The notes beneath the pieces are model-generated. The model was not told the DNA's origin. It saw only the letters and a list, made by a program, of their open reading frames with translations, and made no database searches. Source: Closterium sp. NIES-65 (lineage: Eukaryota; Streptophyta; Zygnematophyceae; Desmidiales; Closteriaceae). From it: 64,000 nt of DNA. Numbering within the stretch: the stretch's first letter is position 1; the number at the start of each line of letters is the position of its first letter. Below are positions 3,901 to 55,600 of this stretch, in pieces. The translations under genes and the position numbers were made by a program. The stretch spans positions 1,296,001-1,360,000 of the forward strand of contig CANXME010002453.1 in assembly GCA_948144175.1 (NCBI GenBank), given 5' to 3'.

Positions 3901-5664
3901 AGGCGAGGGGGATGATAGGTAAGGCGAGGGGGATGATAGGCAACGCAGCGGGGTGGGCAGAGGAAGGGAATCAAGAAAAAGGCTTGAAAATGGTAAGGCT
4001 TGTCATTATGGAAGGACAGGAGGGATGAAACAAAGCCATGTGGTAGAGAAAATGGTAGTCGGTGTCGGTGACGAGCGAGGGGAATGTGAGGAACGGAAAG
4101 GCAGGGGACGGGTGGACGCGAAGGGCAGGGTAAAGGCAGGAACGGAAGAGAGCTCACAGATTGTCTGACAAGGTTAACCTGTTCTGACTTAACGACCCAG
4201 CCCAGCAGCGGGTGCAGCTCCGAGTATAGCATCTGAAGCAAGGCAAGGCAGGGCAACAGCACGGGACTTGAAGAGGATGTCAGGTTTGTTTAGAAACGGA
4301 TGATGAGGAGGAGCCAGGACTTGACCATGACAAGCCCAGCAGCGGGTGCAGCTCCAAGTATAGCATCTGAAGCAAGGCAAGGCAAGGCAAGGCAGGACGC
4401 CAACAGAGTCCCGGGCGGAAGATTTTAACGAGGTGAATGTGGAGAGCCAAACCCTGACCTTGTTTTTTGAGACGTCTCAAACTCAAAAGTTCCGAGACGT
4501 CTCAAACTCAAAAGTTCCGAGACGTCTCAAACTCAAAAGTTCCGAGACGTCTCAAAAGGTGAATGTGGAGAGCCAAACCCTGACCTTGACAAGCCCCTTC
4601 CTCTTCCCCCCTTCCCACCCACCCACCCACCCACCCACCCACCAGAGGACACTCATCCGCATCCTGACACCTCCCACCCGCCCACTCACCACATCTGACC
4701 GCTCCACCACAGCGCATGGCTGCTTGGCGCCATGCACTGGAAGCAGCGGAGAGCAGCCTGGCCCAGCTCCAGCAGCTGGAGGAGAGCCCAACTCTATCCC
4801 TGACCCCTGCCCTCCCCCCACCGCCCCAGACCCTTTCCCCGCCCCTAACTTGGGGAGCGAGAAGGAGAGCGGAGAGGAAGAGGAGGTGGAGGAGGAGGAG
4901 GGGGGAGAAGGCGAGGAGGAGAGCTGCACGGATCCCCTGACGAGCACCAGCTCGTGGGGGTTGGTGTAATCCGCTAGCTCACTCGCATCTGACGGGCCCC
5001 GGCCCAGCTCACGTTGCCCCCATGCTGCTGCTGACTGGCTTGACGACCCTTCGTCGCTCTTGCTTCTTCCCACGGGTAACAGCCATTTCAACCCGCCACT
5101 GCTGCTGCTGCTGCTGCTGCTGCTGGTGGTGCCACCACCAGTGGTGCCACCAACGCTGCTGTCGCTGCGGACGCTGAGAATGCTGCTATCATCCTTCCCT
5201 GGCCTGCTCTCTCCGCCTCCATTTCCCCGCCATAGGCGCGTGAAGTATCCACTACTTTCACCGCTGCCATTACTCCTCTTATCCCCGCTACTGCTGCTAC
5301 CTCCCGCACCGTCAAATCCCCCCCCGCCTGTCCCGCTGGCCTGCTCCGGCGCGCGCCTGAACCACCGCCGCCACCCGCCGCTTCCGCCAGCCTTTCCCCC
5401 GGCCGCGCGGGGAAACTCCGAAGCTCCGCCTCCGCCGCCCGCCGGCGGAATCCCGTTGAGTTCCGCGATGGTCGTTTCGCGCGCGGATTTGAGCGCCTTG
5501 AGCGAGCGCGACACGCCGTAGAGCTGCCACCAGGCCTGCGTCGCGCTGCCGGCGATTAAGAGGCCGAATAATACCTCCTCCTGCGCGAGAAGCGCGCGGA
5601 GGAGCGCTACCCAGCTTCCGCCGCCGCCTGACGCGCCGTAATCCGCGCCGCCGGACGACGTCAT
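402..5664 (-). CDS. SP1/MUL1-like GIDE-domain membrane E3 ubiquitin ligase, 3' end outside window
   Basis: Family role: E3 ligases of organelle outer membranes, with two membrane spans around a GIDE domain and a C-terminal RING. Seen: start ATG at 5662-5664; first exon 4690-5664 (325 codons) with a hydrophobic span at residues 31-50, a Gly/Ser-rich linker, then LVLVRGSVQ and CAVVERSD, which look like the start of GIDE; donor GTGAGT follows. Further exon pieces: about 4194-4232 (MLYSELHPLLG), about 2867-3015 (DISLVGATQPLPL to IGKRLP, donor GTGAGT), about 2400-2432 (VGLRTDERVLPV, the typical end motif of GIDE), and about 735-864 (second span, LLSAAAAGVIGLAVWK). The RING is not visible and should lie to the left. 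Most exons have truncated tandem copies, so the exact exon choice is uncertain. Family assignment rests on motif order, not on a search. Confidence 0.6.
1143..2203. repeat. 63/66-bp tandem satellite, each unit with a 34-bp perfect palindrome
   Basis: About 16 nearly identical units. Each contains a self-complementary 34-mer starting GAGTTGACTTTTGAG and centred on GTCGAC, followed by CTACGTCAAGGAAAGCACTC and one or two AAG-type triplets, which give the 63 or 66 bp length. Single changes (GTCGAC to GTTGAC near 2022, GAGTCG to GCGTCG near 1691) break individual palindromes. Because the unit is a multiple of three it makes a long open frame, which I do not regard as a gene. Confidence 0.95.
2288..2551 (-). 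repeat. Three tandem copies of the GIDE end-motif exon
   Basis: Copies at about 2288-2323, 2400-2437 and 2515-2551, each an AG acceptor followed by codons for VGLRTDERVL or a mutated version. The middle copy keeps the motif and is followed by GTCTCA. The others are altered after VLP or have CAT for CGG. Spacing is about 112 bp. Confidence 0.75.
2715..2890 (-). repeat. Tandem partial copies of the exon end coding ALHVLIGKRLP
   Basis: Complete 3' exon edge at about 2862-2890 with donor GTGAGTG. Decayed copies lie at about 2714-2750 and 2783-2810 (LHMLIGKFLP-like and LIGTSS-like), the first also keeping a GTGAGT donor. Confidence 0.7.
3287..3945. repeat. 21-bp tandem satellite, about 31 copies
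   Basis: Unit GGTAAGGCGAGGGGGATGAT plus A, almost invariant apart from scattered GGTAAG to GCCAAG or TCCAAG changes. It sits in an intron of the GIDE gene. The 21-bp length keeps all frames open, producing artefactual ORFs of 257, 309 and 527 codons on the two strands. Confidence 0.97.
4194..4395 (-). repeat. Two copies of a GIDE-gene exon (MLYxELHPLLG)
   Basis: About 60 bp containing the acceptor CTTGCTTCAG and the exon occurs at about 4198-4256 and 4337-4395. The lower-coordinate copy reads MLYSELHPLLGW then GTCGTT; the other reads MLYLELHPLLGL. Confidence 0.7.
4431..4588. repeat. 32-bp direct repeats flanking a palindrome array
   Basis: The same 32 bases occur at 4431-4462 and 4557-4588. 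Between them are four copies of GAGACGTCTCAAA, the first in the complete form TTGAGACGTCTCAA (4467-4480) and the others separated by ACTCAAAAGTTCC. This is a clean case of a palindrome at a tandem-duplication junction. Confidence 0.9.
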
Positions 5665-5669
5665 TCACG

Positions 5670-6660: not shown

Positions 6661-7131
6661 GGGTCAAACACAGGGATATCAGACTTTAGAGTCTGAATCA
6701 GAGTCAGTTCAGACTTTTTTTTGGTACCGTACCTAGTCTGCACTCTATGAATTTTTTTTGGGGCCTTGTCTGATGTTTCAGAGTTTTTTTAACATACTTG
6801 TCTGTAATTTCATACTATTTTTAGTAGTGTAGGCTGTGCCTCAGACTTGTATCGGGGGTGCATTCTAAATCCGATAATACAGGGGGTAGGGTCCAGCCTG
6901 GCGGCGTGGAGCAGTAACCCCGTCAATCACGGGCGGGAACCCACGATTTCGCCAGCGCGACAACGCACAGTTGCGTTGGTACAGCGTTGCTGTAATCCCA
7001 CCCAATTCTGACCAATCGCGGCTGCGCCGCAGGCAGTGTTGGCAAGATTCCTTGCCAACACATAGCTCGCCACGCACTGCACCCTCGCTGTACACCACAA
7101 CCATCCACCACACCCCGCCTTCAATGTTGCC

Positions 7132-7242: not shown

Positions 7243-7260
7243 TGGTATCGAGCAGGTTCC
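7243..7260 (+). promoter_or_regulatory. Primer-binding site of copia-1
   Basis: TGGTATCGAGCAGGTTCC directly abuts the 5' LTR. Plant copia elements use TGGTATCAGAGC, complementary to the 3' end of initiator tRNA-Met. Here one base of that motif is missing. Confidence 0.85.
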
Positions 7261-8175: not shown

Positions 8176-8256
8176 GCCCCGCTGTCTGGTAAGAGCAGCG
8201 CCTCTGTCACTGCACTGCCCTTACCCTACTGTCCGAGCTGCTAGTCTACTGCTGTC

Positions 8257-9318
8257 ATGGCTACCCCTAGTGTCCTCACTTTTGACGCTGAGGGTCGGGC
8301 CATTGACTTTGACGTCTGGGTAGATGACCTGCAGCTTTTCCTACAGTGCGATAGGGCAGACGGTCTCTCTCTCTTTGACCTCACCTCTGGTGCCTCTCCT
8401 GCCCCTGCTGCTGATGCCGACGCCACTGTTCGCTCACAGTGGGCCACACGCGATGCTGCTGCACGTATTGCTGTGCGTCGCCACCTGCCTACCTCTGAGC
8501 GTGCGCACTTTAGTCAGTACAAGAGTGCTCAGACCTTGTACGACGCTGTAGTTGCACGCTACTCCTCCCCCGCCACTGCTGCACTGAGCCGCCTCATGCT
8601 CATGCTACCGTACCTCTTCCCTGACCTTGCTGCCTTTCCGACAGTCGCTGAACTCATTACGCACCTCCGCACTAGTGACACTCGCTACCGCGCTGCACTC
8701 CCTGCTGAGTTCTGCGCTAAGAGCCCCCCCCCTCCCATGTACATCACCCTCTACTACATAGTCACCCGGCTCCCAAACTCCCTTCGCGTAGTCAGGGACC
8801 ACTTCCTCTCTGTTTGCCCCACCACTCTCACCGTTGACCTCCTCGAGAAGGCCCTCCTAGCAGCGGAGAAGAGCATAGTAGCTGTAGGAGACTCTCGTGG
8901 TGACCCTCGCACCCCCATCTTTGAGGGGTGTTCCCCCTCCCCCCTTTTGCCCTCTGTTGCCTCTGCTGCTGCGTCCGACCTTGTTGGTCTGGAGTCGGTC
9001 GGTGCGGCGTCTACCCCTAGCGGGAAGCGCCACCCTGGCAAGGGCAAGGGGGGCAGGGGTGCTGGAGGAGCTAGCGGGGGCGGTGGAGGCGGCGGTGGAG
9101 GCGGTGGAGGGGGTGGGGGTGGCGGTGGGGGTGGCGGCGGGGGTGGAGGTGGAGGTGGCGGCAGTGGAGGCGGAGGAGGCGGCGGCGGTGGCGGTGGGAG
9201 CGGAGGTAGCGGAGGTGGCGGCGGTGGAGGAGGCGGTGGCGGAGGAGGTGGAGCTGGTCGGGGTGGCGCTGCGCAGAGGGTCGGCTCTGGTAGTGGTCAG
9301 CCCCAGCAGCAGCAGTAG
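8257..9318 (+). CDS. copia-1 Gag with long polyglycine tract
   Basis: 353 codons starting MATPSVLTFDAEGRAIDFDV. The N-terminal 230 residues have the usual UBN2/retrotran_gag layout (W-DDLQLFLQCD, then -YDAVVARYSS-, -ELITHLRT-). After a basic KGKGGRGAGG stretch comes about 75 residues of almost only glycine with a few serines, encoded by mixed GGN codons. The frame stops after QQQQ at 9316-9318; the normal gag-pol continuation follows in the same frame, so the stop probably reflects a mutated CAG. No CCHC knuckle is present in the Gly region; a Cys/His cluster (C-x13-C-x3-H-x4-C) lies just after the stop at about 9400-9475. Confidence 0.85.
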   Translation: MATPSVLTFDAEGRAIDFDVWVDDLQLFLQCDRADGLSLFDLTSGASPAPAADADATVRSQWATRDAAARIAVRRHLPTSERAHFSQYKSAQTLYDAVVARYSSPATAALSRLMLMLPYLFPDLAAFPTVAELITHLRTSDTRYRAALPAEFCAKSPPPPMYITLYYIVTRLPNSLRVVRDHFLSVCPTTLTVDLLEKALLAAEKSIVAVGDSRGDPRTPIFEGCSPSPLLPSVASAAASDLVGLESVGAASTPSGKRHPGKGKGGRGAGGASGGGGGGGGGGGGGGGGGGGGGGGGGGGGGSGGGGGGGGGGGSGGSGGGGGGGGGGGGGGAGRGGAAQRVGSGSGQPQQQQ

Positions 9319-12300
9319 CAGCACACTCATGACATCCCCCCCCCCCGGCAGCAGCTCCGTGAGTGGTACGTTGCACGCCAGCGGGGTGGGGGGGCTGGTC
9401 CGTGCACCTACGTCCTACGCACCGGCGACCGCGCGGGTGAGCAGTGCGGGGGAGCGCACTCCACCCAGCGCTGCTTTGGCCGCCTGACGGACGCTTGGCG
9501 TCACCAGTTCCCGGAGGCCACTAAGATCCCCTGTTGGGGTGAGCTGTCTAGGGCGGGAGTAGCTGTCTTTGACCTTGACTTTGATGCTATTCTTCCTGCC
9601 ATATATGCTGTGACTATTAGTGATGAGGGTGACTGTTACCGGTGTTTTCCGCCCGACCCGGGCATTGAGACTGCTGCTCTAGGTACTGGTGAGGCTGTTG
9701 CTCTAGGTGCTAGCGAGGCTGCTGCTCTAGGTGGAAGTGCGTCTGCGTCCTCAGGTGCTGGTGAGTCTGCTCTCTCAGGTACTGCGTCGGCTTCGGCCTC
9801 CCTCACCTTCACCCTTGACTCGGGGGCTTCTCGCTCCTTCTTTCGAGACCGCACCACACTCACGCCGCTTGGTCGGCCAGTTGCAGTCTCTCTGGCAGAC
9901 CCCTCTGGGGGTCCTGTCCTTGCTCACTTCTCCACTGTCCTCCCGTGTCTGGTGGCTCCCTCTGGCACCCTGTCTGGTCTTTACCTCCCCTCATTCTGTA
10001 CGAACTTGGTGAGTGGTGCTGACCTACAGGATGGGGGATTTCACCAGTTCACTCCTGCTAGCCAGCGGGTGACCCACTGCACGGACGCTCGTACGGGCCG
10101 ACACGTGGCCACGTTTACACGTCGGCCGGGGTCGAGCCTGTACACACTGACCACTGGGTCTCCTCCTGTCCCTGTGTCTGGTCAGGTAGCTGCGTCGAGT
10201 CAAGTGTTTGCTGCGGCGTCCAGGTCTGGTCCTGAGTCTGCCCCCTGCTCGTGTCGCCTCCTGTCTCACCAGACTCTCCTCTGGCACCACCGCCTTGGTC
10301 ACCCCTCCCTGCTTCGTCTCAGAGGCATGGCCTCCTGTCTCCTTGTTTCTGGTCTTCCCCGGTCCCTCCCTCCCCTTCCTCCGGGGCCTGGCCCTACCTG
10401 TGTCCCCTATGTCGAGGGGCGGCAGCGGGCTGCCCCTCACTCCTCCCAGTTTCCTTCGAAAGAGGCCCCGCTGCAGATGGTTCACATGGACGTGTGGGGC
10501 CCGGCCCGCGTCTGTGGACAGGGTCATGAGCGCTACTTCCTGCTGGTGGTTGACGACTACTCGCGTTACACCGCAGTCTTCCCCTTGTGCAGCAAGGGTG
10601 ATGTCACTGCGGTGTTGATCAACTGGATCCGCACAGCTCGTCTCCAACTCAGGCAGAGCTTCGGCTCGGACTTTCCTGTTCTGCGTCTGCACTCTGATAG
10701 AGGCGGAGAGTTCTCCTCTGGCCTTCTGCGAGCCTACTGTCGTGCACGAGGCATCCGTCAGACCTTCACACTTCTGGACTCTCCGCACCAAAATGGGATT
10801 GCTGAGCGCCGCATTGGCATGGTCATGGACGTCGCTCGTACGTCCATGATGCATGCGGCTGCCCCCCATTTTCTGTGGCCATTTGCGGTTCGGTATGCGG
10901 CGCATCATATCAACCGTCACCCCAGGGTCTCCAGGTCGGAGACCTCCCAAGCTTTGCTGTGGACGGGGAAGGTTGGCGATGCGTCTGCGTTCCATGTCTG
11001 GTGATCTCGGGCGTTTGTCCGCGACTTGTCTGCGGACAAGCTGTCTCCTCGTGCTGCTCCTTGCGTCTTCCTTGGCGTCCCCCCTGACGCGCCAGGGTGG
11101 CAGTTCTACCACCCCACCTCTCGCCGTGTTCTGTCCTCCCAGGACATCACGTTTGACGAGTCGGTCCCCTACTACCGCCTCTTCCCCTACCGCAATCCGT
11201 CCCTCCCCCCGCCACCGCTCTTCCTTGTGCCAGGTCCCCCCCCGGTAGACCCCCTCCCCCCTCAGGGTCCTGCCTCTTCAGGTGTGTCCCAGGTAGACGC
11301 AGTCGACCCTCTCGAGGTTACTGGTCACTCTGGTGCTGCTGAGGGTGCTGAGCCTGGGGGTGCTGACTCTGGGAGTGCTGAGCGTATGGGTGCTACGCGT
11401 GCGGGTGCTGAGCCTGGGGGTGCTGGTACTGGGGGTGCTGAGCCTGGGGGTGCTGAGCCTGGGGGTGCTGAGATTGGGGGTGCTGGGTCTGGGGGTGCTG
11501 AGCCTGGGGGTGCTGAGCCTGGAGGTGCTACGCCTGGGGGTGCTGAGCCTGGGGGTGCTACGACTAGAGGTGCTGAGCGTGGGGGTGCGGAGCCTGAGGG
11601 AGCTCGGCCTGCTCGTGTGGCGTCTAGCGGTGCTGGACCTGGAGGTTCTCCGGGTGCTTTGTCTCGGCGGGAGCCACTCTCTCCACAGGAGCTGCGCGAG
11701 TGGTTTGCCCGGCGCTGGAGGCGTGCTGCTGGAGCTGGTAGTTCTTCGGTTGCTGAGGGTGCTGGTGCCGCGGGTCCCGGAGGTGCTCGTACTGGGAGTA
11801 TTGGAGCTGCTGGGCCTGCGGCTACGACTAGAGCTGGAGCTACTGAGGGTGTTGGGGCTGAGGCTAATGCTGTTGGTCCTGGAGGCGGTCCTGCTGAGGG
11901 TGCTACTGTTGCTGCTGGAGGTCCTGGAGCTGGAGGTGCTGCTGGCGCTGGTGCTGCCGCTGGGGGTGCTGGTGCTGTCCCTGCTGTGTCTGTAGTCGCC
12001 GCGCGGCCTCAGCCGTACTTCGTTCCGCTCCTTGAGCAGGTTCTTGGTCTCCCGCCTTCTACTGGTCCTCCTCCTCCCTTAGAGTGTCCACGGCCTGTCC
12101 CGTCACAGTTACAGTTACAGCCGGCCTCCCCTTTGCCTGCTCCTTCTCCCTACACTGGTCCTACTGGAGGTCTTGCTGAGCGTCGTGAGCGTGCGTCTTG
12201 CCCTGCGTCGCCTGTCTGTGCTGCTCGCACTAGTGGTCCTGGTTCCCGTCAGCGTCCTCCTCCTGTCCCTGGCACGCACCGGATGTCTCTGCGTCTGTCC

Positions 12301-14270
12301 ACTGTTCCTCTGCGTGCTCCTTTGCCTTCTCCTCCTGAGTCCTCTCTCCCTGCTCTTGCCGACCCGGAGTCGGACTCTCTTCGTGCTGCCAGTCCTACTG
12401 TCACGCATCTTCTTGCTACTGCCGTCACTGACCCTTCCTTTGAGTCCACTGCTGCGTCTGCCCTTGTTGCTGAGCTCGTCGACTTTGCTGCTCGCTGTCG
12501 TCTAGACTACGCTGCTAGTCTTGTCGCTGAGTCTGGGTCTGTCTGTCCTCCGTCCGTCGGGGGTGAGTGTGCCCTTGGCACGGACGTCCTTGAGGACAGG
12601 CAGGAGGAGTTCCAGTGTCTGGCTGCTGCTTCACCTCATCTCGTGTCTATACTCCTTACCCCTAAGGGAGACCCGGATGCACTTGACATCCCGACTCCGC
12701 GCTCTTACGCGGAGGCGATAGAGGGTCCCTACTCCTCTCAGTGGCAGGCAGCTATGGACGCAGAGATGGCTTCCTGGAAGTCCGCAGGCACCTACGTTGA
12801 CAAGGTTCCCCCGCCTGGGGCGAACATCGTCAGTGGCATGTGGATTTTCAGGGTGAAGCGGCCGCCAGGTTTTCCGCCTGTCTTCAAGGCGCGTTACGTG
12901 GCTCTTGGCTTCAGTCAGCGGCAGGGAGTTGACTACTTTCAGACCTTCTCTCCCACCCCGAAGATGACCACTCTTCAGGTGCTGCTGCACATAGCCACTC
13001 AGCGCGACTACGAGTTTCACTCTCTTGACTTCAACACTGCTTTCTTGCAGGGCAGCCTGCACGAGGAGATCTGGCTGCGCCGCCCACCTGGCTTCACTGG
13101 GACTTTTCCTCCTGGCACCCAGTAGAGCCTCCGGCGGCTAGTCTACGGTCTCCGCTAGGCACCGCGTGAGTGGCACGACACACTGAGGACTACGCTTGCG
13201 GCTCTTGGGTTTGCTCCCTCTACTGCCGACCCGTCGCTATTTCTGCGCACCGACACTTCTTTGCCGCCGTTCTACATCCTCGTGTACGTCGACGACTTGG
13301 TCTTTGCCACAGCTGACACTGCTGGACTCGCCCACGTGAAGTCGGAGTTGCAGAAGAGACACACGTGCACAGACCTGGGTGAACTGCGCAGCTACCTTGG
13401 CTTGCAGATCACCCGGGACAGAGCACGCCGCACCATTACCCTGACTCAGTCACACATGGTGCAGCAGGTCCTTCAGCGCTTCGTCTTCACGTACTCCTCG
13501 CCTCATGCCACTCCTCTGCCTACTCGCCACTCGCTCTCAGCTCTGCCTTCGGATGAGTCCGTAGAGTCGAGTGGCCCGTACGCAGAGCTTGTTGGCTGCC
13601 TCATGTACCTGATGACCTGCACACGACCTGACCTTGCATACCCTCTTAGCATTCTCGCACGCTATGTTGCTCCTAGAAAACACAAACCAAAGCACATGGC
13701 TGCAGCAAAGAGGGTGTTGCGCTACTTGTGCAGTACGTCGGGCATGGGGCTTGTGCTTGGAGGGCAGAGTCCAGTGGTCCTCACTGGGCACGCAGACGCT
13801 TCTTGGGCTGACGACCAGGCTACGCAGCGGTCGCCACAGGGTTACACCTTCAGCCTTGGTTCCGGCTCTGTTTCGTTGCGGGCTACCCGCTCGTCTTCTG
13901 TTCTCGGCTCCAGTTGTGAGGCTGAGATCTACGCAGGGGCCATGGCTGCACAGGAGCTTCGCTGGCTCACCTACCTGCTGACTGACCTAGGAGAGCCGCC
14001 TCGTTCTCCTCCAGTGCTGTACGTAGACAACAAGGCCATGCTGGCCTTGTGTCGGGAGCAGAGACTGGAGCACAGAATGAAGCACATTGCTCTTCGCTAC
14101 TTCCTTGCTCGTGAGCTACAGCAGCGTGGTCAGCTGCGCCTTGCGTACGTGGCCTCTTAGGCCAACACTGCTGATATCTTCACCAAGGCACTTGTGCCTT
14201 GTGATCATCAGTGCTTTTGTACTCAGCTGGGTCTTGTGTCTGCCTTGCCTCACTTGCTCACCCCTTGACC
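9319..14270 (+). pseudogene. copia-1 pol region (protease, integrase, RT, RNase H)
   Basis: Protease motif LDSGASRSFF near 9820; GAG-pre-integrase HHRLGH near 10286 with CVPY where a second Cys is expected; integrase core D (HMDVWGP, near 10486), D (HSDRGGEF, near 10690) and E (AERR, near 10803). Ala/Gly-rich linker 11320-12000. RT from about 12780 with FKARYVA, YVDDLVF at 13286 and LGLQITRD; RNase H with TGHADASWA (13784) and ADIFTKAL (14172). Stops at 11002 (TGA), 13123 (TAG in a Trp position), 13156 (TAG in a Gln position) and 14158 (TAG in a Glu position) break it. Confidence 0.92.
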
Positions 14271-18113: not shown

Positions 18114-21100
18114 TCAAGGTGCCTCAACAGTAGCAGGTGCATTTTCATCCGCCAATGCAGGAATGGAGTCGAGCGTTGGCAAGAACTGGGGTGGAAGCGG
18201 AGGAGAGAGCACTTGTGCCGTGTGACCGATGGAGTTCTTTTCTCGGAGCTCACATAGGTCTGCCTTTTCTGCGGCCATGCGTGCCTGTGGAGGATGTGAG
18301 AGGACAGAGTCAAGATGGGAGAGGAGAGAAGTGAGGAAAATTGAGAGGGGAGCGAGAGGAGGGGAGAGAGGGTAAGGGAGAGGGGAAGGCAGAGGGTGGG
18401 TGAGAGCAGGGACGGGAGAGGTGGGGAGAGGAAAGGGGCTTGCATTGACAGCAAGCCAAGAAACCATGTCATACTTCAACATTCAAAAAGCAAGTGGCAA
18501 ACTTGCACAAGCCCCCAGCGCACTGAGCATCAAAGTCACCAAACATTATTTTAGCCTCTCAAAAACACCCTGAGCACAGGTGTTACAAGGGGTGTTACTG
18601 ATCCCAGTACTCACTTGAAACTTGAGATCGCTGATCTCATCCTCCCAGCCTTGATCCTGAGCTTGAGCGAGCTCAGAGCAGCAAGGGTTACACCCCGAGC
18701 AAACAAGTCACCAAGCCCAGCTACTCACCTGGAACTTGAGGTCGCTGATCTCGTCGTCTGCAGCTTTGATCCTGAACTTGAGAGCGTTCAGAGCCGCTAG
18801 GGCCGCACCCGATGGGTCCGCACCTAACGTCCCCTCTCCCACACTGCTGCTTCCACCACTGCTGCTGCTGCTCTCACCGCCGTTCTCTGTATCTGCTGCA
18901 CCCTCAGTTATCTGCATGGGCAGAGAGGTACAGATGGAGCAGATTGCCATGTGAAACTCATAGCAATCCACGCATAGCTACGGCAGCAGCATGTGAAATA
19001 TATTTATGTGGCGCCTCAAAGACAGAGGCACAGAGGGAGCAGAGTGTCATGTGAAACTCAAAACGAGTTTCACGCATAGCTGCTGCAGCATGTCAAATCC
19101 GCGTCAAAGCAATGAGCTCAGTTGAAGTGAGTGAGGTGACTCGTAGCGAGAGAAATGCAACTGGGTCGTGAGGACGTGGCACTGACCTGGAGGACAGCTT
19201 GGCAGACAGTGAGCAGCTTCTGTGCCACGTCAGCACTGCCCCTCTCCACCTCCTGCAATAAAGGGGAACCCGGGTATGCAGGGAGCAGAGAAACACAGTT
19301 TGACCAAATGGGCAGCTTGGGGGGGTCTTCAGCCCTATAGGGGAAGAGGGGAGGAGGGAAGAGGCAGCAGTTGGACCGCCACCACCCACCACCCACCACC
19401 CACCTCCAGTCGCTGCTGCAGCCTCGCCTCCTCATCATAGCCAATCAATCCTCTCCGCCTGTCCCGCCCTTGCCCCTGTGCTAACCCCTGGTTCTACACT
19501 CGCACTCCTCCCTTCCCCTTACCCACCCACCCACCTCCTGTCGCTGCTGCAGCCTCGCCTCCTCATCATAGCCAATCTTCTCCGCCTGCCCCCCCTTCCT
19601 CTCATGCTGGTATGACATTTGAGAATTCTCAAAAGCTACACAACCCCACCTTTAGACGGACCCATCACCACTGCTTACCTCCAGTCGCTGCTGCAGCCTC
19701 GCCTCCTCATTAAAATCAATTTTCTCTGCCTGCCCCGCCTTGCGCCTGTGCTAACCCCTCTGGTGCTACATCCCACCACCACCACCAACACTATCACCCA
19801 CCTCCAGTCGCTGCTGCAGCCTCGCCTCCTCATCAAAATCAATTCTCTCTGCCTGCCCCGCCTTCTTCCTGTGCCGCCCCACCTCCTCCTCCAGCCGCTT
19901 CACTCGCAACTCCATGCGCTTCACTGCTGCTGCCATCTCCTCGTTCTGCGCCCTCAGAGTGCTGTTCTCCACCTGTGTGAGGGGGAAAGGAGGTCGTCAG
20001 AGATGGGGGAAGGAGAGGAGGGGTTGGGATTGTGGCTTCACCCGCCCTTCCATGCGCTTCACTGCTGCTCCAAGCTCCTCGTTCTGCGCCCTCAGAGTGC
20101 TGTTCTCCAGCTGTGCAAGAAAGAATCTTAGGGGAGGGGGGGGAAGCGTGGAGGGAGTGTGGGGGAGGAAAAGGGCGAAGGGTGGAAGGGAGAGAGGAGT
20201 TGAGAGAGTGGCTTCACCCGCCCCTCCATTCGCTTCACTGTTGCTGCCAGCTCCTCGTTCTGTGCCCGCAAAGCGCTGTTCTCCACCTGTGTGGGGAGAG
20301 GGGGGAACGCAGGGGAGGAGACAAGCGGTTGAGACAGTAACTTCACCCGCCCCTCCATATGCTTCACTGTTGCTGCCAGCTCCTCGTTCTGCGCCCTCAG
20401 AGCAACGTTGTCCGCCTGAGCAGGTGGAAGGTTTAGTTTTGAGTGAACTCAAAAGTAAGTTTAGTTTTGAGTGAACTCAAAACTCAGCTCCTCGTTCTGC
20501 GCCCTCAGAGCAACGTTGTCCGCCTGAGCAGGTGGAAGGTTTAGTTTTGAGTGAACTCAAAAGTAAGTTTAGTTTTGAGTGAACTCAAAACTCAGCTCCT
20601 CGTTCTGCGCCCTCAGAGCAACGTTGTCCGCCTGAGCAGGTGGAAGGTTTAGTTTTGAGTGAACTCAAAAGTAAGTTTAGTTTTGAGTGAACTCAAAACT
20701 CAGCTCCTCGTTCTGCGCCCTCAGAGCAACGTTGTCCGCCTGAGCAGGTGGAAGGTTTAGTTTTGAGTGAACTCAAAAGTAAGTTTAGTTTTGAGTGAAC
20801 TCAAAACTCAGCTCCTCGTTCTGCGCCCTCAGAGCAACGTTGTCTGCCTGAGCAGGTGGAAAGAAACGGAAAAGTGGAGGTGGAAAGGGAAAGCAAGGGG
20901 GTTCGCGATGGCGTGGATTCACGTCCCCTGCTACACAACACAATTCGCTGCTGCTGCTAGCCGCGCCAGCTCAACCCACCCTCAGCCTGGAAAACACTTG
21001 CAGTGGTTCAAGCTGTGGTATTAAACCACCCTCCACACCCCCACACACCTTGAGCTTGAATGCGCTGGTTTAGGCTGTGCTGCCCCACCAGCATCTGCAG

Positions 21101-32358: not shown

Positions 32359-32431
<73 letters not shown>

Positions 32432-35400
32432 GATGTCAACACTTTGTTACAACATTGAGCCGACTCAGAAGTAGACGACTTTCTAGACGTCTCAAAAGTT
32501 GCACACACACACACAGACACGCCGATGTCAACACTCTGTTACAACCTTGAGCCAACTCGAAGGCATCTCTGTGCATAAGAGCAGGCCACTTACTCGCTGG
32601 ATGAGCTCCATGACTTGAGCAAAGCAGGTGACCGGCTGCTTGGTGAGATTCTCCACATAAACGCCATTGGGGCCCTCCCGGATCTGAGGGAGACAAAAAG
32701 GGGAGGGCGTGGGGAAGAGGGGGGGGGGGGGAAGGCAGGAAAGAGTGTTTGAGAGGCTTACAAATGTGTGTGACAGGAATGGATAGGCGAATAAAGACTG
32801 GATTGTAAATATCCAGGAATGAGCACGTTCACATGAACGTGAGACGCTCGCCCTACACCTGAAACCCTAAGCGTTATACCCTGAACCCTGAACCCTGGAA
32901 CCACATGCAGGTTGCAGCGCTTGAGGTCCAGCAGATCATACAGAAAGTGCTCGTTGTAACTTTCCAGGAAGGAGCACGTGCAGATGAAAGTGAGACGTCT
33001 CAAGACACATGCACCCTACACCTTAAACCCTAAGCCCTCATCCCTGTGCTCACGTGCAGGTTGCAGCGCTTGGGGTCTAGCAGGTCATAGAAGTGCTCGT
33101 TGTAGATTTCCAGGAAAGAGCACGTGCAGATGAACGTGAGGCGCTCGCCCGCCCTCTGCTGCTTCTCCTGGCAAGGTTGACGGATGGGGAGAGGAGGGAA
33201 GAAACAGAGGTGGAGAGAGGAGGAAAGAAACAGAGGTGGAGAGAGGAGGGAAGAAACAGAGGTGGGGAGAGGAGGGAAGAAACAGAGGTGGGGAGAGGAG
33301 GGAAGAAACAGAGGTGGGGAGAGGAGGGAAGAAACAGAGGTGGGGAGAGGAGGGAAGAAACAGAGGTGGGGAGAGGAGGGAAGAAACAGAGGTGGAGAGA
33401 GGAGGGAAGAAACAAAGGTGGGGAGAGGAGGGAAGACACAGAGGTGGAGAGAGGAGGGAAGTCACAGAGGTGGGGAAAGGAGGAGGGAAAGAATAAAAGG
33501 TGGGAAGAGAGAAGGAGGAAAGGAAGAGACGAGGGGCAAGAAGAAGGGAAGGGAGATGGCATTGGGAAAGGGAGAAGGAGAGTGAGACTCTGGTTAGGAG
33601 AAATGGAGTTGGTGGGGGCAAGAGTTGAAGGGTGATGGAAGAAGGTGTGATGGACTCAAACACGGGCATGGTGAAACGGAAGGTAGAGTAGAGCAGCAAA
33701 CAGCTAGCAGACAGACGGACGGTTGTCAAATTTTTGAGTCGACTCAAAAACAGAGTGAAGGAAGGGGAAGGGGAGGATGAGGAAGGTGTGGTTGTGGAGG
33801 AGGATGAAGGGTTTTTGAGTCGACTAAAAAACGGAAGGTAGAGTAGAGCAGCAAACAGGTAGCAGACAGACGGACAGTTGTCAAATTAAAGCAAGGTCTG
33901 CTGTCAATATTCAGTCGGCTTAGAAGCAACCACATCAGGCAGCCGTAAATTTCCAATCAAGATCCCAATCCAGATTTGAAATCCCAAGGTTCTGGTCCCC
34001 AGAAGTTCTGCACGCAGGCAGCAAGGAGTGCCGGCAGCGAGGTGTGCAGTCTTTTTGAGACGCACCTGTTGCATCAGGGCGAAGACCAGCTGGAAGACTC
34101 GCGGGATCATCCCCCACCTCGACCCGACCTCCACGTCAGTGTTATCCCCTCGCAATCTGTCCACGTCAGCCTTGTCCACGTCAGCTCCAAACATTGTGTA
34201 CGTCTTCCCGCTGCCCGTCTGAGATGTGTCATGAGGAAGAGGGAGTGGGCAAACGGGGGGAGGAAAGGAGAGTGGCCAGGAGGAGGGAGGGAGGGCATAC
34301 AAAAAGGTTGAAATGGAATATGAAAGGATGACAATCTAAGACATCTCAAAAGTAGAGGGAGAGCATGCAGAAAGAAAGAAACAAGGATATGCTCTAGGAA
34401 GGGGATACTGCATGAATAAGACTGCTGGGGATGTTGTCAAGGGGTTCAGGGGATAGGGAAAGGGCAAGAGGGACGGGGGGGGAATACCACCATGTTATAT
34501 GCCACAATTTTTTAGGCGCCTCAAAACTGAGACGATTTTTGAGGCGCCTCAAAAATGTTGTCAGGGGGTTCAGGGAATAGGGAAGAGGCAAGAGGGACGG
34601 GTGGGGAAATACCACCATGCCATATGCCACACACGGGAAGCCTTGAAACCACCGTTATCCATGGCAGATACAACGAACCTGGCCATACGCGAACATAGTG
34701 CTGTTGTACCCAGCTAGGCAGTTCTCGACTATGGGCCTCCCTGCCAGCTCGAACAGGTCCTCCTGCACAGGGAAAGGGGGGAAGGGGGGCAACGAGGGAG
34801 AGGGACAGGGGATGGGGGCTTAGAGAAGAGCTTTGTAACTATGGCCTCCCTGCCAGCTCAAACAGGCCTCCTGCACAGGGAAAGGGGGGAAAAAGGGGCA
34901 ATGGGGGAGAGTGGTAGGGGATGGGGGCTTAGAGAAGATATTCTAAACTATGGGCCTCCCTCCCAGCTCGAACAGAACCTCCTGCACGAGGAGAAGTGGG
35001 GAAAAGGGGCAAGAAGGGGGGAAGGGGCTTATGAGGCGCTTCAGAGAGAGGCAATTCTCGACTATGGGCCTCCCTGCCAGCTCGAACAGGTCCTCCTGCA
35101 CGAGTAGACAACGGAGAGGGACCAGGGAGGGGGAAGGGAGAGGGGGAAGCGGGTGAGGGGAGCAGCGAGAGGTGGAAGGAAGGAACAACGACCAGACGTG
35201 GAAGGAAGGAAAAGAACCTGTCTTGGTTCACCAGGAGCAGCGACCAGGGGCCGTCTTGTGCCCCTGTTCCCACGAGTACCTTCAATAGGTTCTACCTCGA
35301 CCTTCATTTCAAGAGCTCTGCCACTCCCATCCCCATGCCCACCTGCGACGCGCTCACCCCTACCCTTCAATCCAACAACCCCCGATCCCTGATCCCCACG

Positions 35401-36920
35401 CCCACCTGCACCGCGCTCTCCCCTGCCACGTGGTCGAATGTGAACTGCTCCGCTGCGCCCGCCCTGTCCGGGTTCACTAGGAACAGCGACCGGGGGCCGT
35501 CCTGTGCCACACACTTGGCCCCGGGATACCCCGTCAGCTCAGGGCCTGCTGGCGGTCGCACCCTCACGATCACCTGACGGTGGGCGATTTGGGTAAAGGG
35601 GGGAGAGAGAGAAAGAAAAAACGGAGGTGAAATTAGAGTTGGCAAAAGAGCGACTGGGGGCCGTCCTGTGCCACGCACCGCCCCCCAGGGTACCCCGTCA
35701 GCTCAGGGCCTGCTGGCGGCCGCACCCTCACGATCACCTGATGGTGGGGTGGGAGGAGGGGGAGAGAAGAAGAAAAGAGGTTACAATCAAGTCAACTAAA
35801 GAGCGACCAAGAGCCGTCCTGTACCACACACTTGGCTTCGGAATACCCTGTCAGCTCAGGGCCTGCTGGCGGCCGCACCCTCACGATCACCTGATGGTGC
35901 GACGCGCGGTTGGGGGTGGGGAGAGAGGGCAGAAATAGATATGACGTTTGAGTCGACTTGGGGGGAGAGAGAAGAAACGGAAGTTACTTTTGAGTCGACT
36001 CAAGTCGGTACACAAAAGGAGGTGGCCCAAAAAGAGTGGGAGCTTGAGTCCTAACCATGATCCAGCGCAGCAAGCAAACGCACACTCTCATGCAAAGGAC
36101 TCTGAAACGTGACATCTCATGCATTCGATCCTGAATTCCTCTTCGAAATTCCTCTGAATCTTCAAATCACCCTCGCCCATGTATGAAATGTGAGACATCC
36201 AATTTCCCTTGGATTCCTTACTTGGATGTTGGAATCATCCGAGATTGCGGCTGATAACCGTGTGGGGACGGGACGAGTCCTCGTGGCAGTGCTCGGGGTC
36301 TTGACAGCGATGGTGCGATCGCGATCTGCAGGTAGAGAGGGACGCACGGACGGATAACGCATGAATCCGGTAAATCAGAGGCAGAAAGGTAAAATTGCTT
36401 TGAGACGTCTCAGAGCAAATTCTGTTTCACGCTGCTCGAATCTTGACAGCGATGGTGCGATAACGATCTGCGGGTAGAGAGGATAAATGACCGGCGTAGG
36501 TCCTGGCAAAGAGGACGCACGGAAGGATGAAGCATGAATCATGGTCAACGTGCGGACTGTTGAGTCGACTCAGAAATCGGCCGCGAATAGACGCACGGAA
36601 GGATGACAAAAACAAGAGATGGTCGTATCAAAATAAGAGGGTGATTGGAGTATCGTCCATAGTGCCTCAAGTGCAGTACGGCTCAAATACTCACACGCCT
36701 GCGACTGCGGCGTAAGCACGTTGCCGGTCAGCGTCGCAAGCCCCGCTCTAGGCGTGCCTCGCTGCGACAACGACGACGACGACGATCCTCCTGCCTGCAA
36801 CGACGACGACGAACCCCCTTGTGTCTGACGGCTGAGAGGTTCAGCCTTGCTGGGTCCGCTTTGCAGTCCCGCGGACCTGTGACGGCCTACGGAAGCGGGC
36901 GACGGAGCCATGTTCTCCAT
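18114..36920 (-). CDS. Kinesin-12, phragmoplast-associated / POK-like
   Basis: Family role: microtubule plus-end motor guiding the phragmoplast and division plane in streptophyte cytokinesis. Motor exons, all joining in frame: 36695-36920, 36222-36325, 35406-35573, 34679-34762, 34066-34218, 33054-33167, 32594-32683, 32269-32358, 31863-31933, 31589-31663, 31002-31092, 30713-30771, 30245-30374, about 29190-29758. Start ATG 36918-36920; a TTTCAG just upstream leaves a 5' exon possible. Motor about residues 111-485: VIVRVRPP, P-loop GQTGSGKT (193-200), SSRSH (329-333), LVDLAGSE (359-366), LKFAQRAK. Exon 24639-27900 alone codes about 1,087 residues of heptad-rich coiled coil. Smaller coiled-coil exons follow, e.g. 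28338-28493 (upstream of it), 23740-24082, about 23123-23186, 22478-22590, 21600-21705. Last exon 18114-18284, stop TGA. No break seen in the motor. Confidence 0.92.
18600..18930 (-). repeat. Kinesin intron: duplicated coiled-coil exon edge
   Basis: The exon end coding [11 protein letters not shown] (about 18728-18770) has a decayed copy at about 18612-18665, each preceding a CTCACCTGGAA/CTCACTTGAAA donor complement. Confidence 0.65.
19380..19870 (-). repeat. Four tandem copies of exon coding [10 protein letters not shown]
   Basis: The motif CCAGTCGCTGCTGCAGCCTC recurs at about 19406, 19540, 19682 and 19806, each followed by CGCCTCCTCAT. A perfect 16-base palindrome TTTGAGAATTCTCAAA (19618-19633) lies between the second and third copies. 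Confidence 0.8.
19900..20420 (-). repeat. Tandem copies of exon coding [22 protein letters not shown]
   Basis: Four copies spaced about 130-180 bp (around 19915-19980, 20050-20115, 20225-20292, 20352-20415). Each has CTCCTCGTTCTG and several keep a CACCTG acceptor complement. More than one could be a genuine exon; all code heptad-like sequence. Confidence 0.75.
20377..20870 (-). repeat. 108-bp tandem repeat carrying an exon piece and two near-palindromes
   Basis: Four to five almost identical units. Each holds the exon piece for [13 protein letters not shown] with its acceptor and two copies of TTTTGAGTGAACTCAAAA. Only the lowest-coordinate copy runs on to a GTGAAG donor; the others end in the palindrome. 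Confidence 0.92.
21150..21900 (-). repeat. Four or more tandem copies of a coiled-coil exon and flanks
   Basis: TTGACCTTGGAAAACGTGTG and GTGCTGCCCCACCAGCC recur at about 21150-21250, 21323-21390, 21458-21520 and 21590-21650 (about 130-bp period). The last keeps a full exon coding [22 protein letters not shown]; related [14 protein letters not shown] pieces recur at about 21665-21700, 21810-21850 and 21955-21985. Confidence 0.8.
22110..22600 (-). repeat. Three tandem copies of exon coding RSMADK--QKNHTL-QENAHLK
   Basis: Copies around 22130-22220, 22318-22410 and 22478-22590. CCGCCATGCTCCTCTGCAGC or a near variant marks each. The highest-coordinate copy has the complete exon with the preceding [15 protein letters not shown]. 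Confidence 0.8.
23480..23690. repeat. Direct duplication of about 85 bp in a kinesin intron
   Basis: CTGTGCCACGTGAAGTGCAT through GGCCACCAAC occurs at about 23489-23576 and 23605-23681, separated by TAAATCAACTAAAAA, which could be a decayed copy of the TTTTGAG palindrome. Confidence 0.75.
23990..24400 (-). repeat. Three tandem copies of exon coding LHAQL-ASEQSV-GS
   Basis: Copies at about 24000-24085, 24165-24260 and 24305-24400. The lowest-coordinate one continues as a long open exon to a donor at about 23740; the others are truncated. Confidence 0.8.
28030..28890 (-). repeat. Repeated copies of exon coding [22 protein letters not shown]
   Basis: Full copies at about 28338-28493 and 28635-28770, a short one at about 28845-28885, and decayed tail copies at about 28095-28150 and 28160-28275. 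The copy at 28338-28493 ends ANEQLAR with donor GTGAGA and joins in frame to exon 24639-27900. Palindromes of the TTGAG-NNNN-CTCAA type lie at about 28041-28058 and 28191-28206. Confidence 0.85.
30122..30374 (-). repeat. Duplicate of the end-of-motor exon
   Basis: Exon 30245-30374 ([13 protein letters not shown]...KKEIARLK) has a truncated, mutated copy at about 30122-30213 carrying the same HNKAV-NEAAEG-KDALK segment. CTGACTCGACTGAAAA between them resembles a decayed palindrome. Confidence 0.8.
30790..31015 (-). repeat. Short repeats of the exon end coding FLLQ plus donor
   Basis: CACCTGGAGAAG marks the true exon end at 31002. CACCTGGAAGAGCAAGGAGG and variants recur at about 30815, 30844, 30872, 30902, 30953 and 30975. 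These are copies of a 15-25 bp exon/intron edge. Confidence 0.75.
31160..31663 (-). repeat. Tandem copies of exon coding [15 protein letters not shown] and next exon start
   Basis: The functional copy is 31589-31663. Truncated copies lie at about 31432-31492 and 31290-31345, with period about 145 bp, and each retains CCCGAGCTGGGAG or a near match. A decayed copy of the following exon's start lies at about 31165-31240. Confidence 0.85.
32340..32565. repeat. (CA)n microsatellite and duplicated block with palindromes
   Basis: About 35 CA units at 32360-32430. Then CGATGTCAACACT-TGTTACA to the decayed palindrome TTGAGCCGACTCAGAAG occurs at 32431-32470 and again at 32523-32562. Between the two lies TCTAGACGTCTCAAAAG. 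Confidence 0.88.
32805..33167 (-). repeat. Three tandem copies of the exon coding [16 protein letters not shown]
   Basis: The functional exon is 33054-33167. A near-complete but frameshifted copy lies at about 32905-33000 and a short copy at about 32805-32865. The middle copy ends in GAGACGTCTCAAG (about 32991-33003) where the real exon reads GAGGCGCTCGCC. Confidence 0.88.
33187..33480. repeat. 28-bp purine-rich tandem satellite in kinesin intron
   Basis: About ten units of GAGGAGGGAAGAAACAGAGG followed by TGGGGAGA, with GGGG/GGAG variants. On the transcribed strand this is a long polypyrimidine stretch. Confidence 0.92.
33670..33890. repeat. 155-bp duplication containing two palindromes
   Basis: ACGGAAGGTAGAGTAGAGCA through TTGTCAAAT occurs at 33676-33730 and 33831-33886. 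The first copy is followed by the perfect TTTTTGAGTCGACTCAAAAA (33731-33750); the second is preceded by TTTTTGAGTCGACTAAAAAA (33812-33831), one base off. Confidence 0.93.
34431..34631. repeat. 76-bp direct repeats flanking two GGCGCC palindromes
   Basis: Copies at about 34431-34506 and 34555-34631 (about 90% identical by eye), separated by a 48-bp spacer. The spacer holds TTTTTAGGCGCCTCAAAA and, at 34535-34556, a perfect 22-base palindrome with core GAGGCGCCTC. Confidence 0.93.
34725..35110 (-). repeat. Four tandem copies of the exon coding [14 protein letters not shown]
   Basis: The complete exon is 34679-34762. Copies truncated after about 45 bp lie at about 34833-34876, 34950-34990 and 35058-35105, each with the CTCCTGCAC acceptor complement. 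Confidence 0.9.
35210..35900 (-). repeat. Four copies of the first motor exon ([17 protein letters not shown])
   Basis: The functional exon is 35406-35573. Copies truncated at the GTCGCT position lie at about 35650-35742 and 35803-35894, and an internal fragment at about 35222-35262. GTCAAC and TAGAGTTGGCAAAAG remnants at the joins (about 35780, 35630) resemble decayed palindromes. Confidence 0.9.
35917..36610. repeat. Duplications with palindromes near kinesin exon 2
   Basis: TTTGAGTCGACTTGG (35946) and TTGAGTCGACTCAA (35989-36002) follow two copies of a GGGGAGAGAG-AGAAA block. GACGCACGGA-GGAT occurs at 36341, 36513 and 36590, with TTTGAGACGTCTCAGAG (about 36400) and TTGAGTCGACTCAG (about 36560) between successive copies. 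The exon 2 start is duplicated at about 36435-36475. Confidence 0.85.
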
Positions 36921-37879: not shown

Positions 37880-38062
37880 CGGAGCCGGCGGAAGATTTCT
37901 GCCCGGGGCAAAAAAAAAGTATTCCCCATCGCGACCGGCATGCCGTTCGGGAGCCTCAACCCTAAAATTTTAGGGTTGATGCTCCCGAGCCGCATGCCTT
38001 CCGAGTGGGTTTTAGTTTTTTTCTTGCCCGCGGGCAGATCCCTTCCGCGAGCAGGCGGAAGC
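37880..38062. repeat. Imperfect foldback (inverted repeat), arms about 85-90 bp
   Basis: The arms pair from about 37882 with about 38058; the centre at 37967/37968 is a perfect 24-base palindrome around ACCCTAAAATTTTAGGGT. Paired landmarks: TCTGCCCG-GGGCAA with its complement, GCATGCCG with CGGCATGC, CGGGAGC with GCTCCCG. It could be a MITE or a hairpin small-RNA source. No target duplication found. Confidence 0.7.
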
Positions 38063-40261: not shown

Positions 40262-41165
40262 TGGCAGGCCTGAATGTCAACGGCCTGGGAGATGGGAACA
40301 AGCAACAACACACGAAATGATGGACCAGACAGGCTGCAGATGTTATTCTGTTATCTGACGTCAGGCTCTCAGACGACCACACCTTCTGGAAATCTCTTAA
40401 CCAACCCAACATCTTAGTCGCCCCGCCTACCACCAAAGCCGGGGGTGTGGCTCTCATCTCCCGCGGACCCGGCCTCTCCCTTCACAACACGCTGGTTCAC
40501 TCGTCAGGCAGACTTGTCGCAGCGGAAGTCCGCCTTGACTCTTTCAGCATCACTTTGCTGGCCGTCTATTTCCCGGCGGATGCAGACGAAAGAAAGGCTT
40601 TCGTTCGCAGAACCCTGGGCTCGGTGATTGATTCGGTGCAGTCGGGTTCGCACCTGCTTATCCTGGGGGACTTCAACCTGATAGAGGACCCACTAATGGA
40701 TAGGACGTCGAGGAAAGGTTGGGCAAAAGAGAATGAGGAGCTCTATCAGCGGTGCTGCGCTTTCAGTGTTTCGGACGCTTTCAGGGTGCTGCACCCTTAC
40801 AAGCGGGAGTTTACCTTTTACTCATGTGCTAACCAGTCCAGCTCGCGGATTGATAGGGCGCTTATCTCGCAGTCGTTGCTATCGCACGTGGAGTTTGCCC
40901 TTACACATCATGCCGGCGGACCCGATCTCGGACCACACCTTCGCGGTGAAGGTCGCCTTCTGGATGGATACACGGGTGTAGCTCGAGCCCGGGCTTTGGA
41001 AGCTGCCTGCATACATGATCGGGCGGCCGGGGGTCAGGAAGATTATTGAAGCAGTGGATAGGCAACTGGCGTCGAATGGGGAGAACTTCGAGCTGCTGAT
41101 CTCGCGGCTTAATGCCGGTCTCAAATCTTGCGTGAAGGAGGAGCGTAAGCGGGTTAAAGCCACGT
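40262..41165 (+). pseudogene. LINE ORF2, APE-type endonuclease part
   Basis: GLNVNGLG near 40268, TGA at about 40318, GGVALISRGPG (40441), LLILGDFNL (about 40657, with the metal-binding D and N), SSRIDRALIS (about 40840) and ISDHTF (about 40927) in a shifted frame. This order is that of APE-like LINE endonucleases. The frame then reaches the copia-2 junction. Confidence 0.85.
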
Positions 41166-41169
41166 TGGT

Positions 41170-52600: not shown

Positions 52601-55600
52601 AATGGCAACGCCACTGCCCTATCAGCCTCTCCCTTCTCAGCCTCTGTTGCCGCCTGCACAGCAATCATTGCTGCCTGCACAGCAATCATTGCTGCCTGCA
52701 CAGCAATCATTGCTGCCTGCACAGCAATCATTGCTGCCTGCACAGCAATCATTGCCGCCTGCACAGCAATCATTGCCGCCTGCACAGCAATCATTGCCGC
52801 CTGCACAGAAATCATTGCCGCTTGCACAGAAATCATTGCCGCCTGCACAGCAATCATTGCCGCTGAGAGTGCAAGTGCAATCATCGCCGCTTGCAGTGCC
52901 TTCATTGACCACCGCTACACAGTCATCCGCACGGCAGGCAGAGAGGGCCAGCAGGCCGCGTGGCCAAGGGAAAGTGCAAACGGGCAGATCAGCAGACTGG
53001 GATGCGTTAGCAGTGCCTTTCGAGGCGCCTCAAAAGTCGTTTCCTGTCTCGCGTGGCCAAGGGAAAGTGCAAACGGGCAGACCGGCAGACTGGGATGCGT
53101 TTGCAGTGCCGGATGGATTTCCAGGAAGAATATTAGAGGGAGCAGGTCCTTTCTCCGCTGCCCGTGGAGCCAGGAAGACACTTGAGGCGGCGCCTCAAGA
53201 TGCGTGCACAACGCCTCCTGGAGTAGCCGATAGAATACCCCATGCGTTTGCAGCACTCAAGGGAGGACCTCCTTTTTCCAGCACCCGTGGAGCCAGCAAG
53301 ACACTTGAGGCGGCGCGTCAAGATGCGTTTGCAGTGCCTCCTGGAGTAGCCGATGTAACCGATAGAAACGATAGAATTCCTGAGGGAGTATCTCCTTTTT
53401 TCAGTGCCTGTGGAGCCAGGAAGAGACGGAAATTAGCAGCAGATGCTGTTCAGGTGGCTTCCGATGCTTGTGCAGTGCCTTCAGGTGGTTTTCAGGTGCC
53501 TTCAGGTTCTTTTGGGGCGCGCTCCGCTGTTTCCCAAGTGCCTTTGGATACTTCAGGTGCTTTTCAGGTGCCGTCAGGTGGAGGCGGAAGGCGGGTGAAA
53601 CCAGTGTTGAAGCAAAGTCAGGTGCTTTCGGTGGACGCTGATGTGGCAGTTCCTGATTGGCATTTATCAAAGCGTGAAAACGTTAGGGCACGAAGACTGC
53701 CAATGCGGAGCATGGAAGCAGCAGCAGCAGCAGCAGCAGCAGATGAAGAGGTAGGAGATATGACAGTAGCAGCAGCACTATCAGCAAGAGAAGTAGCAGC
53801 AGTAGAGATTGCAGCAGCAACAGCACCAACAGCAGCTGTGGAAATGGCATCTAAGAGGGAAGCACGGAGTAGGAATACTGTTGCTTCTCCGCCCTTAGCA
53901 ACACCACAAGCAGTTTGGGAACCCTCCTCCTTCAACTCACACTCACACTCACACTCACCCTCACAATCCATCTCAACCCACTTTCCATCACAAAGCTTTC
54001 ACTCTCCCTCCTTGATTCACTTCTTCCCTCTGATTTCCTCCTGTTCCGCCCTCCTCTCCTCTCTCCACACCTGCCTCCTCTCCTTAATCCCACTCCACCG
54101 CATACCACCCCACGGGTTCCCCCTGCCCTGGCCCTTCGAGCCCCCCCTCTCTCCAGAATCTTCTGGGAAGCTTCTTCGGGATAAGTCGCAATTTGACCAG
54201 CTGGTGATGCTGCTTGGAGCATTGTATGTGGCTTCTTGTGCTGCCGCTGCTTGTGATAATGGTGGTGGTGGTGATGCTGCTGCTGCGGTGTCTGCTGCTG
54301 GTGGTGATAGTGATGGTGGTGGTGCTGCTGATTCTGCAGCTATTGATAGTTCTCCTGCTACTACTGCTGTTGTCGCTGCCGTAACTGCTGGTAGTGATGG
54401 TGCTGCTGCTGCTGCTGCTGTTGCCACCGTCGATGCTGTTGCTGATGCTGCTGCTGATTTTTCTGCGGATGCGTGTCTATCAGCAGCAATCAACACCTCT
54501 CTCTCCTCCTTCAAATGGTCCTTCACCCATCAGTTCCTCTCCTTCGCCCGTCGCCATAGCCACATCCTCAGCCTTCTCTTCTCAGCCTCTCTCGCCCGCT
54601 GCTCCTCCTCCTTGCTCCACCCCTCACTCCTTCACAACTTCACTGCATCAGAGACGAATGTTATGGCCCCTCCAAGCTCATTTTCTGCCCGCTGCTCCTC
54701 CTCCTCTTCGCTCCACCCCTCGCTCCTCCTCAACCTCACTACACCGCCCGCTACCCTGTCCGCCTCCACACACATTCCTTCTCAGTCCCAGCCAAAAATC
54801 CCCGCCCAGGAGCGTGCTTACGAGGAGAAGTCAGTGTGGACAAGGGGAGGAGGGGGACTGCATGTGGATGGTTGGAATGGTGGGGAAAATGGGAGGGATG
54901 GTGAGGATGGGAAGGATGGAGAGGATGGGAAGAAAAGAGCTAAACCATTTCCGGCATGGGAGGAAGTGCTGATGTATGGGAACCGAGGCATGCCTCTTGC
55001 ATGGATGCTGCAGCCTTTAGAACGCATGTTTCCGTCTCCCTTCTCCTGCTGCAGTAGGATGAGTTGCAGGGCGGATGGAATAGGCAGGGCAGGAATTGCC
55101 AGGAGGAGGGGCGGGGAAAGCAGTGGGAACAGTGAGAGAAGTGGTGGCGACGAAAGTAGTGGGGGCAGTGAGAGCAGTGAAAGTAGTGGGAGTGACCTGC
55201 TAAGTCAGGAGGGCAAGAGGAGCTGGGTGCAGTGGTGCCTACCTCCCCCCCGGGACGACTACCGGGACAAAGAGTTCATTCAGGTGGGTGTTGTGCGGGT
55301 GTGTGTGTGTGCATGCCTGCAGGCGGGCGGGCGCGCGTGTGCGCATGTGCTTGTATGCGCATGCACTCTTTGTTTAGTAATGAAGGATTTGAAACTCAAT
55401 CTGTGCGCATAAGCTCAATGAACTCCCTGTCTCATCCCTCCGTCCTCCTCCTCATTTTCCCATTTTCCCAACCCTTTCTATCCCTATCCTCAGATTGAAC
55501 GAGGCCCGCTAGCCCTTCACCAGGCCTTCATTCAAATCCTTTCTGCGGACCCAACAGCCCTCCGAACCGGAGGCTTGGACGTTCGGTTCACAGGCGAGGG

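Follow-up and report, generated by a model that had tools for sequence, protein, structure and literature searches.

Within the window (the 64,000-nt stretch of Closterium sp. NIES-65 DNA analysed here, in which all positions are numbered), a near-palindrome, TTTTGAG-N4-CTCAAAA (hereafter P), lies flush between two copies of a directly repeated flank (X) at 8 of 18 P loci, an arrangement that we denote X-P-X. A joint origin of the palindrome and the flank duplication is supported by the flush junctions, by the correlated ages of X and P at ten chosen loci and by two arrays whose outer ends both read as X, as well as by single-copy, palindrome-free proteins in two strains and a palindrome-compatible X-P-X in strain NIES-64. 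We give a little better than even odds (roughly 55%) to the reading that a staggered break, fill-in and joining through palindromic filler produce X-P-X in one event, with arrays arising by later slippage.

A recurrent palindrome in a duplication-rich region

The recurrence of the palindrome in the 64-kb window exceeds chance. The motif TTGAG-N4-CTCAA matched 30 times, as compared with 0.08 in shuffled sequences, with two tandem arrays supplying 23 of the 30 matches, and a degenerate search (at least 12/16 arm positions and 7/8 inner positions, with the core unscored) detected 43 sites, as compared with 1.2 on average over 10 shuffles. These 43 sites form 16 clusters. P is only ~18-34 bp long, and its arms finish in a T/A run. 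In a hand-made list of 20 sites, each representing a locus or a distinct P, the four-base core is self-complementary in 14, being TCGA in 5, GCGC in 4, ACGT in 3 and AATT in 2. Neither a source of P nor an enzyme or RNA behind it was identified, and no Rfam match occurred at the gathering threshold across the 64-kb window. A viral or bacterial source of the NCGN-core form appears unlikely, its 20-mer having matched 0 viral contigs and 8 isolated sites in prokaryote genomes, in searched sets from which records of the Closterium source genome were possibly excluded.

The surrounding region is rich in duplications, with 110 rows reported by TRF (some overlapping) and 48 spaced pairs. Segments at 18600-21700 are densely duplicated in tandem, most of the pairs listed there being devoid of P; these segments are apparently exon-intron units of what we take to be a minus-strand coiled-coil gene. 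Two frames that are presumably copia-like polyproteins, 8245-14160 (broken by in-frame stops) and 42292-43851, contained no P site in the window searches. The peptide specified by P, in two of three frames, was present in none of the 120 Closterium relatives listed, out of 7998, for part of the first frame, and copia-like polyproteins were therefore rejected as an insertion trap for P. The window also contains a hAT match under the Pfam cut-off, a reading frame at 40321-41049 that we take to be a LINE-like endonuclease and, at 37888-38048, an imperfect inverted repeat of ~160 bp (arms of ~80 bp around CCCTAAAATTTTAGGG), which resembles a hairpin element and by eye is unlike P in sequence.

Palindromes between direct repeats

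At 4431..4588, two copies of a 32-bp X (4431-4462 and 4557-4588, 32/32 identical) enclose a palindromic array of core ACGT with four P cores; at 33676..33885, copies of 55 bp (33676-33730 and 33831-33885, 53/55 identical) enclose P, 61 bp and another P, with core TCGA; and at 34431..34631, copies of 77 bp (34431-34507 and 34555-34631; 69 matches, 7 mismatches and 2 gap columns) enclose two P separated by a short spacer, with core GCGC. Each of these three inserts has a palindrome at both termini, exactly or nearly. The coding locus at 52958..53109 (plus strand) consists of X (59 bp), a 34-bp insert with P at 53017-53036 (core GCGC) and X (59 bp), the copies 52958-53016 and 53051-53109 being identical at 56/59 positions. 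At 18924..19098, a locus absent from the initial annotation, P (19003-19022, core GCGC) separates copies of ~79 and ~76 bp that have diverged (63 matches, 10 mismatches and 9 gap columns), and at 32413..32553 an insert with P at 32479-32498 (core ACGT) separates copies of ~50 bp that overlap a CA tract, into which the repeat at 32431/32523 continues leftwards.

Several loci are arrays. That at 240..398 reads X(35) P X P X', with X identical at 33/35 positions and core AATT; the further P at 379-398 (core TCGT) has no flush repeat of its own. The 66-bp array at 1127..2205 (16.5 units by TRF) contains 16 P, in which P sits in a 34-bp palindrome with core TCGA; it fails the strict test described below, and by reading both of its outer ends are X (CTACGTC...GAAGAAGG). 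The 108-bp array at 20377..20861 comprises five X of 53 bp and four inserts of two P each (core TGAA), and again reads as X at both outer ends. That X, and never P, is outermost in the 66-bp and 108-bp arrays is expected if X-P-X formed first and amplification followed.

Other junctions are less exact. P at 19616..19635 (core AATT) lies between copies of a ~140-bp tandem unit, with gaps of 7 and 7 that become 67 and 78 when wider flanks are used. The locus at 36291..36599 is loose and non-flush: repeats containing GACGCACGGA, at 36341, 36514 (36513 in the initial annotation) and 36590, accompany P 36397 (core ACGT) and P 36557 (core TCGA), which lie 6-22 bp off the repeat ends and give a weak test (p = 0.094 and 0.089). 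The segment 35917-36000 reads X P X P, the order expected if a unit of X+P had simply been duplicated, and lies outside the X-P-X pattern.

At the nine loci measured, among which the loose 36300 locus is not counted, X spans 35, 32, 32, 53, ~79, ~50, 55, 77 and 59 bp. At least two P sharing one core occur in four inserts (4463, 20430, 33731 and 34508), and extra bases are present in those at 52958, 20377 and 32413. No local template for the filler was found beside or between P at the three loci examined.

Flush junctions occur more often than at random sites

In a strict test, which scores X-P-X as flush at a score of at least 25 with both gaps at most 15, the 8/18 P loci (16 clusters, two of them split) compare with 7.4% of random window blocks (p = 2 x 10-5, binomial) and with 13.2% of blocks at most 1.5 kb from P loci (p = 0.0012), the P blocks having been drawn by hand once the sequence had been read, with two block choices allowed at one locus. 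Suffix-prefix overlap at the site reached a score of at least 25 in 10/16 clusters, as compared with 14.3% of 700 random positions (p = 1.2 x 10-5), where each cluster was allowed at most 7 block choices and each random position two. An earlier, looser flank test accepted any repeat around the site; it placed 9/16 clusters within the top 14% of random sites and the remaining 7/16 at 22% or worse. The junctions at 4464, 33731 and 34508 leave gaps of 0-1 bp.

Ten of the 18 loci fail the strict test (379, 23703, 28040, 28179, 30747, 34333, 35987 and 36557, with 275 and 1165 as borderline failures). At 275 the gaps become 0 and 0 once the block is shortened by two bases, and at 1165 a 26-bp copy abuts P, yet the aligner chose the next, complete copy (gap 63). 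Outside the count of 18, as they were below the cluster threshold or hand-drawn, are the blocks at 6404, 18546, 29944, 30100, 32988-33005, 35028, 35948 and 36397, among which 32988-33005 (gaps 0 and 0) and 35028 (gaps 1 and 6) look flush and the other six do not.

In the reverse direction, spaced direct duplications were filtered for complexity and freed of overlapping pairs, which left a list of 48; in 10 of these P lies inside the spacer, as compared with 2.3% of random spacers. Three of the ten rows derive from the 66-bp array, so that eight loci underlie the ten, and the 4431 case escaped the list, having been merged into its inner array. The spacers of the other 38 carry no palindrome, and P is thus unnecessary for duplication. 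The initial annotation had quoted six repeat examples, all of which exist to within 1-2 bases (five tight, and one, 36300, loose), and had placed the palindromes at tandem-duplication junctions at large; this placement holds for the 8/18 flush loci and is too general for the window, given the 10/18 that fail and the 38/48 duplications free of P.

The mismatch fraction of X correlates with the number of P mismatches (rho = 0.77, p = 0.009, n = 10 loci), across loci hand-picked for a readable X pair (36300 included, 19616 left out, and one of the two P at 32413 used), some P mismatches possibly being original instead of decay. Short of proof, this supports that the X pair and P arose jointly.

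The coding locus in other Closterium strains

The coding X-P-X is in frame, within an open reading frame upstream of a HECT domain, and P contributes the peptide FEAPQK, the window protein reading ERASRPRGQGKVQTGRSADWDALAVP-FEAPQK-SFPVS-RGQGKVQTGRPADWDAFAVPDG. The predicted proteins P0026 and P0027 (NIES-54) and P0028 (Naga37s-1) contain one X copy, ERANRSRGKGKVQPGRADWDAFTVPDG, and no palindrome peptide. This single-copy state of a duplicated stretch, seen at one locus and at the protein level (P0026-P0028), suggests that one event may have both duplicated X and sealed the joint with the palindrome, in a comparison of predicted proteins of one gene whose models may skip segments. NIES-65 P0001 aligns on both sides of the coding segment and not across it, and is therefore uninformative on X copy number.

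At nearly the same place, NIES-64 P0029 carries a different repeat of 16 residues, NERSVQRDKCMQKIGK-DCFETSQ-NERSVQRDKCMQKIGK. Its C-F-E-T-S-Q-N could be encoded by TGT TTT GAG ACG TCT CAA AAY, a palindrome with an ACGT core, and P0029 is the only palindrome-peptide match among 127 Closterium proteins (two of three frames covered), 120 of which came from the copia-like search.

The frame 55422-56816, assigned to HECT by a Pfam HECT match, matches Closterium predicted proteins of NIES-65 (98% and 86%) and Yama58-4 (82%). P0003 and P0028 are gene models with HECT and Phosphate-induced protein 1 domains, perhaps fused from neighbouring genes. Inside the coding repeats, 53184-53199 (GAGGCGGCGCCTCAAG) and 53307-53322 (GAGGCGGCGCGTCAAG) are P-like with a GCGC core and are perhaps plain coding sequence.

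Discussion

In the mechanism that we favour, a gene would be broken with staggered ends tens of bases apart, and fill-in of both overhangs would leave either side of the break with its own copy, X, of the sequence that separates the nicks. The ends would then be joined through palindromic filler P, whose core is in most cases self-complementary (NCGN or AATT) and which at times is accompanied by extra bases or by another P; identically tailed ends could pair through this core to give X-P-X, and later tandem slippage of P+X would generate the X-bounded arrays.

P could instead be a very small palindromic mobile element whose insertion duplicates a long, variable stretch of the target, for example by target-primed reverse transcription in which the two break ends prime on an identical A-tailed RNA end, from an RNA or longer element ending in NCTCAAAA. 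The recurrent sequence with discrete ends, the variable X lying flush on both sides at several loci, the T/A run that closes the P arms and the presumed LINE-like endonuclease frame at 40321-41049 all fit such an element; however, P is short (~18-34 bp), an autonomous relative was not identified, the cores vary among loci, several inserts carry extra bases or two P, and an informal look at the half-sites listed for the window made no larger element apparent. We regard this origin as unlikely. It is quite improbable, in our judgement, that P came first by any route and that its hairpin stalled replication, with template switching then copying X across P. The arrays do show expansion of P-containing units, one locus reads X P X P, and some P forms fold better as single strands than shuffles do (z = -6.8 for the 34-bp form, -5.7 for an insert with two P, and -2.8 and -2.4 for short forms), yet the folding of the coding P (53017) is no better than that of shuffles (z = 0.87), and the one-X proteins at that site lack the palindrome peptide. 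Simple back-slip would moreover yield X P X P in place of X P X, and an extra loss step would be needed at each X-P-X locus.

Coincidence would require frequent exon-intron duplication together with P insertions retained solely where an intron separates duplicated exons. Duplications abound in the region, the local null already stands at 13.2% and 19616 lies inside such an array, so that coincidence can account for loose loci of this kind; it cannot account for the flush and coding ones, given the 0-1 bp gaps at 4464, 33731 and 34508, the position of 53017 in an open coding frame, the NIES-64 repeat in a predicted protein and the decay of P in step with X divergence, and for the locus set as a whole we hold it to be highly improbable.

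Several known systems share features with X-P-X. Two studies of mouse cells (PMC5730883, PMC8355091) describe tandem duplications that result from end-joining of breaks with protruding ends, made by nicks on opposite strands; the duplications span tens of bp between the staggered nicks, sometimes with further changes at the joint, and these sources in turn cite plant cases including 'patch-mediated' duplications in rice (PMC4020087). The Closterium loci likewise show adjacent direct duplication of variable length, in the tens of bp (X of 32-79 bp at nine loci). Joints of that kind would be expected to be blunt or to carry non-recurrent or locally templated filler, whereas those of Closterium carry the recurrent P; because the same arms occur at separate sites, random or locally templated filler would not produce P. 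MITEs and the Introners of algae resemble X-P-X in placing an inverted-repeat sequence inside a direct target duplication, which at some Introner families is 3-9 bp according to PMC9860276. Here, in contrast, the duplication is variable, at 32-79 bp, and the insert is largely palindrome. The fixed, short target duplication of a cut-and-paste transposon or MITE is thus unlike X, and the variation in X disfavours cut-and-paste with a fixed stagger; staggered-break repair fits the variable X better than a cut-and-paste transposon does. LINE-type target-primed insertion matches the variable length of the target duplication. It would be expected to leave a LINE or SINE 3' end together with its tail; the arms of P finish in a T/A run, and an element from which they could derive was not identified. 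GC clusters of yeast mitochondria, double-hairpin elements and bacterial palindromic elements are palindromic mobile repeats that, like P, are short, dispersed and hairpin-forming; to our knowledge they occur in organelles or bacteria, and not within long direct duplications. The stem 'palindrom' does not occur in the Closterium NIES-65 genome paper (PMC10407611), and the titles and abstract openings retrieved on palindromes with long target duplications, or on tandem duplication with palindromic or templated insertions, contained no matching case.

The initial annotation had offered insertion with a long target duplication and staggered-break repair as two readings, either of them a new route for duplication within genes. 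Cut-and-paste with a fixed target duplication drops out, X being 32-79 bp, which leaves staggered-break repair or an insertion with variable stagger. Staggered-break duplication has already been described and most of the listed local duplications are free of P, and what stands of the claimed route is the recurrent palindromic joint, in which, rather than in the duplication itself, the novelty would lie.

Small tandem duplications feed new protein sequence, and the event itself usually leaves no label. If the recurrent palindrome marks the joint, such duplications would become countable, datable and comparable among strains, and a search for the enzyme behind the palindrome would become possible. 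Joining by palindromic filler might, in a specific form that we consider distinctly unlikely, depend on a dedicated end-tailing activity that copies a template; in Closterium it may be, for example, telomerase-like or a retroelement reverse transcriptase. Each 3' end left by a staggered break would receive an identical short tail of approximately TTTTGAGNC, and the two tails would pair through their self-complementary core and be sealed into X-palindrome-X. If this were true, end-tailing would constitute a sequence-marked route of gene-internal duplication at work in several strains, at least two.
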